Source: Balneola sp. | GTDB lineage: Bacteria > Bacteroidota > Rhodothermia > Balneolales > Balneolaceae | Direction: 5' to 3' | DNA length: 64,000 nucleotides | Assembly: GCA_002694685.1 (NCBI GenBank) | Contig: NZMW01000013.1 | Span: 62,001 to 126,000, forward strand | Shown here: piece by piece, positions 19,015 through 21,763 of the stretch | How the letters are laid out: the number at the start of each line of letters is the position of its first letter | Position numbering within the stretch: the stretch's first letter is position 1 | Notes under the pieces: model-generated | What the model saw: only the letters and a program-made list of their open reading frames with translations | What the model was told of the DNA's origin: nothing | The model's database searches: none | Program-made: the position numbers and the translations under genes

Positions 19015-21081
19015 ATGTCAAAGAAAAAGCTTAAAAAACAACTTGGTTTATATGATGTATTCGCCATTTGTACGGGTGCAATGTTTAGTTCAGGCTTCTT
19101 TTTACTTCCGGGTATCGCTGCGGCCCAAACAGGGGAGGCTGTGTACTTAGCCTATCTGGCTTCGGGTATATTGATTATACCGGCAATGCTAAGTGTGGCT
19201 GAATTATCAACGGCTATGCCAAAGTCAGGTGGAACCTATTACTTTTTGGATAGGAGTTTAGGCCCCATGATAGGAACCATAGGCGGACTCGGTTCTTGGG
19301 TGGCATTAATGTTCAAAAGTTCATTTGCACTGATAGGAATGGGGGCTTATTTAGCGCTTTTTGTTGATATGCCATTTACGGCATTGGCCCTTGCACTTAC
19401 GGTAATTTTTGGCGTTCTGAACATATTTGGGGCTAAGGAGACAACACTTTTACAGCGGATATTGGTTACGGTCTTAATCCTGATTATGGGAATATTCGTA
19501 ATACAGGGGCTTGGCGCGGTAGGATTCGAACTAGGGACTTCAGATTCAGATCAATCCTTTTTTGGAAATGGAATCCATGGCTTTATTGCGACTATTGGCT
19601 TGGTTTTTGTCTCTTATGCGGGGCTCACAAAAGTTACGAGTGTGGCGGAAGAGGTTGAGAATCCGGACCGAAATATACCACTCGGGATGATCCTTTCGCT
19701 GGCTACGGCTTCTTTAATTTATGTAGCTGGAGTTTATGTGATGCAGCAGATTCTCACTCCTGCCGAATTTCACGCAAGCCTTACCCCTGTAGCAGACGCA
19801 GGAGCTAAATTCATGTCGTGGCTACCCGGTTCGGGCGGTGTTCTTCTAATTGTGATTGCAGCGGTTGCAGCTTTTGCCTCAACAGGTAATGCAGGAATCA
19901 TGTCAGCCTCACGATATCCTTTTGCGATGTCCAGAGATAAACTGGTTAGCGCGAACTTTCGAAAAATAGGAAAGCAGGGAACCCCTTATTATGCAATAAT
20001 AATTACGGTGGTTTGTATGTTGGCAATTTTACTAATTTTTGATGTAGAAGCAGTGGCGAAGTTAGCAAGTGCGTTTCAGCTTCTTCTGTTTGGAATGATG
20101 TGCTTTGCTGTAATCATCATGAGAGAAAGTAACATAAAAGGATATCAGCCTGGATTTAAGTCTCCATTCTATCCTTGGGTACAGATTTTAGGAATGCTGA
20201 TTTCAATTTGGCTGATTTCTGAAATGGGTATCCTTGCCGTTTCTCTAACAGGTTTTATTATTGTGATGTGCATTATGTGGTACATCTACTATACCAAAGG
20301 AGAACTGTCTAGACGGGGAGCTATATTCCATGTGCATCAACGCTTAGGGAAGAATAGGTATGACGACCTGGACTTAGAGCTGCTGAATCTTATTAACGAT
20401 AAAAACCTAAGTGAACATCTTTCTTACAAGGAAACAATTGCACGCTGTGTAATCATCGATCTGGAAAAGAGTCACTCAGAAGCAGACTTATTTGAACAGG
20501 CCGCAGATATTCTATCAGGCAGAATAGGAGTCGAGAAAAAAGTGATACATACCGAGTTGACTAGTAAACAGGATATAAGCATTACAAAATTAGGTCAGGG
20601 TGTCGCTTGTAGCCATCATAAAGTATCGTATGTAGCTGAACCTGAGCTGGTGGTTTTCAGAACCAAAACAGACTTAGAGGAAATCAATAATGAAGAGGAG
20701 AACTACCTCTTTGCAATTCTACTGGTTCCGGAAACAGAGCAAGGTGTTGATATCCGTCTGATGGGTCATCTTGCTGAAATTGTTCAGGCTATTCATTTCA
20801 AAGAAAATTGGATGAAAGCAGACAGTAAGAGGAAGCTAAGAGATTGCCTGCTCACTGAAGAGCATTTCTCTCATATCAGTGTGAATGACCATTCACAGCT
20901 AAAGAAGTACATCAACAAGCCCATACGGGATATCGAATTACCAGGAACGTGCCTTATTGCTATCATTTACCGTGGCAGTGAACTCATTATTCCTCACGGA
21001 AACACTATTATAAGTGAGATCGATGAATTCCTGTTGATTGGCGAACCGGCTGATATAGAAAGTTTAGCAGGTAACTCATAG
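19015..21081 (+). CDS. APC amino-acid permease fused to PTS EIIA-like and RCK_C domains
   Basis: A 688-residue membrane protein with three parts. Residues about 1-435 are an APC-superfamily amino-acid/polyamine transporter with about 12 helices (DVFAICTGAMFSSGFF; PKSGGTYYFLDRSLG). Residues about 465-615 match the PTS EIIA type 2 (fructose/EIIA-Ntr) fold: a K/S-x-EAD helix, TKLGQGVACSHHKV with the potential phospho-histidine H534 (or H535), and LFAILLVPETEQ. Residues about 625-688 look like the RCK_C/TrkA-C ligand-binding domain (ELPGTCLIAIIYRGSELIIP). The tail probably gates or regulates transport in response to phosphorylation or a bound ligand; this is inference. The substrate is unknown. 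A terminator follows. Confidence 0.85.
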   Translation: MSKKKLKKQLGLYDVFAICTGAMFSSGFFLLPGIAAAQTGEAVYLAYLASGILIIPAMLSVAELSTAMPKSGGTYYFLDRSLGPMIGTIGGLGSWVALMFKSSFALIGMGAYLALFVDMPFTALALALTVIFGVLNIFGAKETTLLQRILVTVLILIMGIFVIQGLGAVGFELGTSDSDQSFFGNGIHGFIATIGLVFVSYAGLTKVTSVAEEVENPDRNIPLGMILSLATASLIYVAGVYVMQQILTPAEFHASLTPVADAGAKFMSWLPGSGGVLLIVIAAVAAFASTGNAGIMSASRYPFAMSRDKLVSANFRKIGKQGTPYYAIIITVVCMLAILLIFDVEAVAKLASAFQLLLFGMMCFAVIIMRESNIKGYQPGFKSPFYPWVQILGMLISIWLISEMGILAVSLTGFIIVMCIMWYIYYTKGELSRRGAIFHVHQRLGKNRYDDLDLELLNLINDKNLSEHLSYKETIARCVIIDLEKSHSEADLFEQAADILSGRIGVEKKVIHTELTSKQDISITKLGQGVACSHHKVSYVAEPELVVFRTKTDLEEINNEEENYLFAILLVPETEQGVDIRLMGHLAEIVQAIHFKENWMKADSKRKLRDCLLTEEHFSHISVNDHSQLKKYINKPIRDIELPGTCLIAIIYRGSELIIPHGNTIISEIDEFLLIGEPADIESLAGNS

Positions 21082-21090
21082 ATATAAAAA

Positions 21091-21120
21091 AAGCCTCATG
21101 AGAAAAATCTCAAGAGGCTT
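21091..21120. terminator. Bidirectional rho-independent terminator
   Basis: Stem AAGCCTC/GAGGCTT (21091-21097 with 21114-21120), an A/A mismatch, then TGAGA/TCTCA with an AAAA loop. A T-run follows on the plus strand and an A-run precedes it, so it can end both the permease transcript and the minus-strand tRNA transcript. Confidence 0.9.
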
Positions 21121-21129
21121 TTTGTTTCG

Positions 21130-21202
21130 TACCGCGTACGGGATTTGAACCCGTGCTACCGCCGTGAAAGGGCGGCGTCCTGGACCCCTAGACGAACGCG
21201 GC
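21130..21202 (-). tRNA. tRNA-Glu (TTC), copy 2
   Basis: Reverse complement folds as a 73-base tRNA without encoded CCA: acceptor GCCGCGT pairing with ACGCGGT (G1-U72 wobble), anticodon stem CCGCC/GGCGG with loop CTTTCAC, anticodon TTC, T-loop GTTCAAATC. It is identical to the copy at 21349-21421 and is the last gene of the tRNA cluster before the terminator. Confidence 0.96.
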
Positions 21203-21264
21203 ATTTCGAAAATATACTCAATAAAAAAACCGTGGATTTTCGTCCACAGCTAAAAGATAAAAAG

Positions 21265-21339
21265 GGAGCCCGATGGGAATTGAACCCACGGCCTCTAGGG
21301 CCACAACCTAGCGCTCTAACCGACTGAGCTACGAGCTCC
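21265..21339 (-). tRNA. tRNA-His (GTG)
   Basis: Reverse complement has acceptor GAGCTCG with CGGGCTC, discriminator C73 and an extra 5' G that gives the G-1:C73 pair typical of tRNA-His. The anticodon loop TTGTGGC carries GTG. It lies between the two identical tRNA-Glu genes. Confidence 0.96.
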
Positions 21340-21348
21340 GTTTAATAG

Positions 21349-21421
21349 TACCGCGTACGGGATTTGAACCCGTGCTACCGCCGTGAAAGGGCGGCGTCCT
21401 GGACCCCTAGACGAACGCGGC
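21349..21421 (-). tRNA. tRNA-Glu (TTC), copy 1
   Basis: Same 73-base sequence as the copy at 21130-21202, anticodon TTC. The exact identity, which reaches a few bases into both flanks, points to a recent tandem duplication that includes or surrounds tRNA-His, or to gene conversion. Confidence 0.96.
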
Positions 21422-21461
21422 ATAAAAATCAATAAGTCAAAAAATAAAGCATGTTACTATG

Positions 21462-21532
21462 AGGCGACAGGCGGACTCGAACCGCCGTACGAGGTTTTGC
21501 AGACCTCTGCCTAACCACTCGGCCATGTCGCC
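21462..21532 (-). tRNA. tRNA-Cys (GCA)
   Basis: Acceptor GGCGACA/TGTCGCC, discriminator T, anticodon stem GAGGT/ACCTC with loop CTGCAAA and anticodon GCA; 71 bases without CCA. Third gene of the minus-strand tRNA cluster. Confidence 0.95.
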
Positions 21533-21554
21533 TTGTTAAGTAAGCCAAAGCTTG

Positions 21555-21628
21555 TACGCCCGACAGGAGTCGAACCTGTAACCTACGCCTTAGAAGGGCG
21601 TTGCTCTATCCAGTTGAGCTACGGGCGC
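21555..21628 (-). tRNA. tRNA-Arg (TCT)
   Basis: Acceptor GCGCCCG/CGGGCGT with a G1-U72 wobble, anticodon stem ACGCC/GGCGT with loop CTTCTAA and anticodon TCT; 74 bases without CCA. Second gene of the cluster. Confidence 0.95.
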
Positions 21629-21689
21629 TCAACTACAGTATGTCAAAAATCAAAATTTCCCAACGATGAAGTCAGGAAATCAATGTTAG

Positions 21690-21763
21690 TCGGGGAGACA
21701 AGATTTGAACTTGCGACCCTTCGCTCCCAAAGCGAATGCGCTACCGGACTGCGCCACTCCCCG
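21690..21763 (-). tRNA. tRNA-Pro (TGG)
   Basis: Acceptor CGGGGAG/CTCCCCG, discriminator A, anticodon stem TTCGC/GCGAA with loop TTTGGGA and anticodon TGG; 74 bases without CCA. First gene of the tRNA cluster, 82 bases after the end of the glycosyltransferase gene on the same strand. Confidence 0.95.

Follow-up and report, generated by a model that had tools for sequence, protein, structure and literature searches.

An APC-fold permease of Balneola sp. with a C-terminal RCK_C domain and an EIIA-like domain that lacks the two-histidine active site

The permease gene and its C-terminal domains

The window, as we call the whole 64,000-nucleotide stretch of Balneola sp. DNA analysed here, contains a gene for a 688-residue APC permease that continues beyond its transmembrane domain into a conserved helical linker, an EIIA-like domain and an RCK_C domain (Table 1).

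Table 1. Features of the permease gene. Positions refer to the window; helix numbers are inferred.
Feature	Position	Strand	Basis or remark
APC permease with C-terminal EIIA-like and RCK_C domains, 688 residues, type II family member	19015..21081	+	ORF, Pfam, family alignment
APC transmembrane domain, residues 10–401 (PF13520, AA_permease_2)	19042..20217	+	Pfam, profile match to GkApcT/CAT4, model
K101 codon, third membrane helix	19315..19317	+	Invariant in 105/105 family members
K206 codon, sixth membrane helix	19630..19632	+	Invariant in 105/105 family members
Conserved helical linker RxGAIxHxxxRLG..., residues about 428–470	20296..20424	+	Alignment and model, weak at 451–468
EIIA type 2 domain, residues 479–612 (PF00359)	20449..20850	+	Pfam, predicted fold
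H534 codon CAT, EIIA active-site column	20614..20616	+	Tyr (TAT) in orthologues L018 and L019
H535 codon CAT	20617..20619	+	His kept in 4/4 members of the window protein's own clade
D579 codon	20749..20751	+	Second active-site His here in type I and stand-alone EIIA
RCK_C/TrkA_C domain, residues 631–684 (PF02080)	20905..21066	+	Pfam, fold, profile

Against a Pfam cut-off of 27 bits, the permease domain scored 157 bits, the EIIA domain (PTS_EIIA_2) 37.2 bits and the TrkA_C domain 40.0 bits. An AlphaFold2 model of the tail (residues 431–688) reached a mean pLDDT of 84.5, and one of the full-length permease 85.3, its weak stretch lying in the linker. The best structural neighbours of the tail model were chains of EIIA-Ntr (PtsN), which share the predicted fold of residues about 469–613 (2a0j: Z 17.2, 2.4 Å over 144 residues; 1a6j: Z 16.0). 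EIIA-Mtl (1a3a, Z 13.2) was among the structural matches listed, and the end of the model matched the RCK_C chains 5f29, 4ys2 and 3jxo. Chance similarity of the tail domains can be ruled out, since both pass curated Pfam cut-offs and the predicted fold agrees with them. The sequence-only reading had proposed an EIIA type 2 fold and a TrkA-C-like domain at the C-terminus of this permease; the architecture of permease, EIIA and RCK_C is confirmed, with the two tail folds themselves being predictions.

The EIIA active site occurs in two forms

H534 is the first histidine of the motif GVACSHHK and had been placed at the phosphorylation site of the EIIA domain. This placement holds, as the alignment puts it in the column of the histidine of GLAIPH in 10/10 stand-alone EIIA proteins from relatives, and the profile in that of VAIPHGR in solved EIIA-Ntr chains. 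K536 occupies the place of the usual arginine. The second active-site histidine is present in all 10 stand-alone EIIA proteins aligned and is replaced in the window protein by D579, a position that we take to be equivalent to H111 of EIIA-Mtl. The window protein thus shares with EIIA-Ntr the histidine of the active-site column, and differs from it in forming one chain with a permease and an RCK_C domain, in carrying an aspartate for the second histidine, and in a first histidine that its orthologues do not keep.

The expectation that the genome would contain PTS phosphocarriers was borne out. The window's genome (G000; 3.95 Mb, 99.7% complete) holds one EI (C2:168759) and one HPr (C2:168437), and PTS_EIIA_2 occurs in three places: a stand-alone EIIA (C1:41589), the window gene, and a paralogue on C2. 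Phosphorylated HPr might phosphorylate H534, and the phosphate state gate amino-acid uptake so as to couple carbon and nitrogen status to transport. An EIIA domain above the Pfam cut-off, a histidine in the right column, a lysine in the usual arginine place, the presence of EI, HPr and stand-alone EIIA, and a histidine likewise in the orthologue L017 all speak for this reading, which we nevertheless consider unlikely in view of the family alignment.

The alignment comprised 105 distinct near-full-length members, drawn from relatives and from the best 80 of 427 confirmed loci in public genomes; five fragments (L021:-1-1330, L022:0-1319, L023:2349-3740, L038 and L046:2732-3781) and the remote members L003, L004, L005 and L077:5986-6816 lie outside these 105 rows. 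A tree was built without the columns at and beside H534; it is a quick tree, unrooted and without bootstrap. We refer to its all-histidine clade as type I (n = 39) and to everything outside that clade as type II (n = 66), a grouping that the unrooted tree does not demonstrate to be one clade, and one that is favoured in the sampling because the 80 loci were chosen as the most similar to the window protein. Type I members have histidine at 534 and at 579 in 39/39 cases each. Among type II members only three, the window protein, L017 and L125, have histidine at 534, the remainder having Tyr (37), Ile (8), Leu (5), Thr (5), Phe (4) or, once each, Gln, Asp, Met and Arg; residue 579 is Asp in 51, His in 14 and Glu in one, and not one of the 66 combines both histidines. 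Four changes between histidine and non-histidine at 534 suffice on the tree of 105 rows, against a mean of 33 after shuffling.

The sequence-only reading had made its proposal depend on conservation of H534, and here it fails. The window protein falls into a starred four-row clade (100) with L017 (His), L018 and L019 (both Tyr), so that two of its three closest orthologues carry tyrosine, and this clade is nested in a six-row clade (96) with L062 (Tyr) and L020 (Gln), four of whose six rows are non-histidine. L017 and L018 share 676 of 693 residues, and still codon 534 reads CAT in the former and TAT in the latter. The simplest reading of the codons would be that histidine at 534 in this clade reflects a one-base change at a freely varying site, making H534 of the window protein a chance histidine. 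With the first histidine not kept in orthologues and the second being Asp579, phosphorylation of the window protein at H534 is not supported. Without a look at orthologues and at the second histidine, the alignment of a histidine with the active site predicts phosphorylation poorly. The neighbouring H535 was considered as an alternative phosphosite and appears improbable: although kept throughout the clade, it should face the other way because it is one residue off on the predicted strand 530–537.

Loss of the site could also mean that the protein is an ordinary amino-acid permease whose tail domains have decayed and have no function. The EIIA part is indeed the least conserved, with a mean pairwise identity among type II members of 0.37 versus 0.71 for the permease part. 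However, L569, P572, L578, R581, G584, H585, A587, E588, F595 and W599 are each kept in at least 94% of the 66 type II members, and type II EIIA therefore has conserved positions of its own and is not simply decaying; the domain is also kept in members of several phyla (judged by record title), and its fold is predicted with high confidence. Decay without function is accordingly the reading to which we give least credit.

The phosphotransfer relay and the type I paralogue

The paralogue on C2 (L011:5140-7245) is a type I member that is 51% identical to the window protein over its length and possesses both active-site histidines, in the motifs GVALNHAR and GQHLR. From these sequence features it appears to be a far better candidate for PTS phosphorylation than the window protein, and its tail probably reads the PTS relay through the two conserved histidines. 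It lies about 11 kb from the HPr-EI genes, and the distance is similar in other Balneolaceae; we give this little weight, since gene order among relatives would lead one to expect it. A link to amino acids through lysA and hisS, which lie beside the type I gene, was discarded, as these two genes have the opposite orientation and their position seems to reflect no more than shared gene order.

Coexistence of the two types raises the possibility of mixed assemblies of a phosphorylatable type I permease and a pseudo-EIIA type II permease, in which the relay would act on the window protein by way of its paralogue. Among 24 genomes (the window's and those of relatives) seven have both types, and in two loci the type I gene follows the type II gene in tandem, 89 bases apart (L079:5959-10235 and L053:520-4805). 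Against this, four of the 24 genomes have type II only and 13 type I only, and the two genes are on different contigs in the window's genome, which leaves mixed assemblies decidedly improbable.

HPr was found in 64 of the 74 genomes searched, a set made up of those behind 50 of the 80 loci and those of 24 relatives. The ten genomes in which HPr was not found were all reached via type II members (L075, L076, L089, L091, L097, L101, L102, L105, L106 and L108). EI is likewise missing in 10/10 of them and present in 12/12 HPr-positive controls checked, and each absence, falling in the same genomes, lends weight to the other. All ten are titled as metagenome-assembled genomes (MAGs), six of them Acidimicrobiales, and they consequently represent few independent events. 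With G000 added to the sample and G029 left out, HPr was lacking in 10/48 genomes with type II only versus 0/26 in which type I was seen (Fisher p = 0.012), a value we do not lean on because the genomes are related and the MAGs may contain further copies that escaped notice. Gene content thus suggests that in some genomes type II members function with no relay present; since 64/74 genomes do have HPr, a missing relay accounts for a minority only.

Transport context and comparison with known systems

Among solved structures, GkApcT (6f34, 5oqt) and CAT4 (9sqh), of the GkApcT/CAT (SLC7) amino-acid transporters, come closest to the permease part by profile. The usual helix-1 motif of such permeases is G(S/T)G. 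The present family departs from these transporters in carrying SSG there and in the two invariant membrane lysines K101 and K206. No NCBIfam transporter model exceeded its own cut-off among the 25 of 42 matches listed. Because of this, and because of the ion-transport genes found next to relatives, an amino-acid substrate should not be assumed. The window's genome has another APC permease (L014:937-3279, on G000:C10), 35% identical in the permease part, whose long C-terminal tail resembles two Usp domains by eye.

A gene for the Na+/H+ antiporter NhaA was found in 17 of the 80 loci, on the same strand as the permease in 17/17 and directly beside it in 15, and was not found within the examined flank in the other 63. 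Six loci (L067, L069, L070, L072, L088 and L137), alphaproteobacterial by title (Hellea, Algimonas, Caulobacterales), have the order NhaA, permease, SbtA with gaps of 0 to 84 bases, and L112 and L127 the order NhaA, SbtA, permease; SbtA (PF05982) is a Na+-dependent bicarbonate transporter. The compact NhaA–permease–SbtA clusters may represent a bicarbonate/Na+ module. Upstream of five of the six, on the other strand, lies a gene for a LysR-type regulator. Balneolota show the orders permease, permease, NhaA (L110, L114, L124 and L128) and permease, NhaA (L063). Further neighbours are CPA1 antiporters, a SulP transporter (once, L121) and, in L062, a Na+/Ca2+ exchanger gene that overlaps the end of the permease gene by one base. 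Among the window's relatives, L144 and L145 have an NhaA gene behind the permease. Across 57 genomes (the window's and relatives) there are 15 NhaA genes in 14 genomes, and five of these 15 genes adjoin a family member. Taken together, the genes surrounding relatives suggest a connection with Na+/H+ and bicarbonate transport. The window's own genome has NhaA on another contig (G000:C17), so that NhaA is linked to the permease family and to orthologues of the window protein, and the window locus itself shows no such link.

The reading we favour, and hold to be somewhat probable, is that the tail constitutes a type II control module of pseudo-EIIA and RCK_C on a permease linked to Na+/pH physiology, and that this module is not phosphorylated by HPr. 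The cytoplasmic tail of linker, EIIA-like domain and RCK_C domain would control transport by the APC-fold permease. The EIIA-like domain would act as a pseudo-phosphotransferase domain, without accepting phosphate from HPr, by binding to the protein's own permease domain or to a partner, or jointly with an RCK_C ligand; the RCK_C domain would provide a second input. Judging from the neighbours of relatives, the permease may act in Na+, pH and inorganic-ion homeostasis beside NhaA. Of this, the analysis shows the domain order, the existence of two forms of EIIA active site among family members and the membership of the window protein in the form without the two-histidine site, with the EIIA and RCK_C folds as predictions.

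SLC4 transporters are membrane transporters of the wider APC superfamily, with a transport fold that differs from that of the window permease and an EIIA-like domain that is N-terminal. The tail model matches SLC4 cytoplasmic domains with Z of 12 to 15.7 (BTR1 15.7, AE2 13.0, band 3 12.8). This agrees with a published account in which the cytoplasmic domain of SLC4 bicarbonate transporters has an EIIA-like fold (PMC4664831). Compared with an SLC4-type EIIA-like domain without a phosphorylated histidine, the fold matches, whereas the window protein does have a histidine, although not a conserved one. The permease part belongs to the APC family PF13520 in Pfam and not to the SLC4 transmembrane family, and the parallel would be one of design, not of membership.

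We suggest tentatively, and with considerable doubt, that an SLC4-like design was reached independently: an EIIA domain would have lost its catalytic histidines and come to sense pH or ions, with no need of phosphate, on a transporter acting together with NhaA and SbtA. If so, the family would retain both the phosphorylatable (type I) and the exapted (type II) state, sometimes in one genome, and the transition from a phosphate-accepting domain to a binding-only regulator would be open to study. As both states coexist in one genome with an intact EI–HPr relay, a direct comparison of phosphate transfer is possible. More widely, ion transporters with EIIA-like domains range from bacteria to human red cells.

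The RCK_C domain matches those of TrkA, KtrC and CpaA (PF02080; 3jxo, 6i8v, 5f29, 4ys2) in sequence and predicted fold; unlike these proteins, the window permease has a single RCK_C without RCK_N. The chains 5f29 and 4ys2 have c-di-AMP ("cda") bound; among RCK_C domains, binding of this nucleotide is characteristic of the CpaA/KtrA kind only. The c-di-AMP cyclase family PF02457 was detected in 17/36 genomes, including the window's, and gave no hit in the Hellea and Henriciella genomes searched, which rules out c-di-AMP as a general RCK_C ligand of the family. In Balneolota, where the cyclase is present, it could be the ligand.

In the CPA2 antiporters L117:3244-5721 and L120:431-2908, whose genes adjoin permease-family genes, an EIIA_2 domain of the same family is attached to an ion transporter that has another fold and bears Usp where the window permease has RCK_C. 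In Balneolota, several ion transporters thus seem to make use of EIIA domains. The titles and abstract openings consulted mentioned no fusion of permease, EIIA and RCK_C; subscription journals are thinly represented among them, and absence from print is not thereby established.

In a genome of the same genus (G005, L144) the order of the window is kept: glycosyltransferase, lipoprotein and permease, then a tRNA cluster. There nhaA (L144:3476-4789) lies 27 bp behind the permease and before the tRNA cluster, at a place syntenic with window positions 21082-21128, and it is absent from this place in the window, L142 and L143. In the window, six tRNA genes (Glu, His, Glu, Cys, Arg, Pro) lie on the reverse strand at 21129-21763, 47 bases behind the permease gene and convergent to it. 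Small ORFs listed over the same interval overlap the tRNA genes and are probably not genes. The order of the tRNA cluster is kept in L142, L143 and L144.
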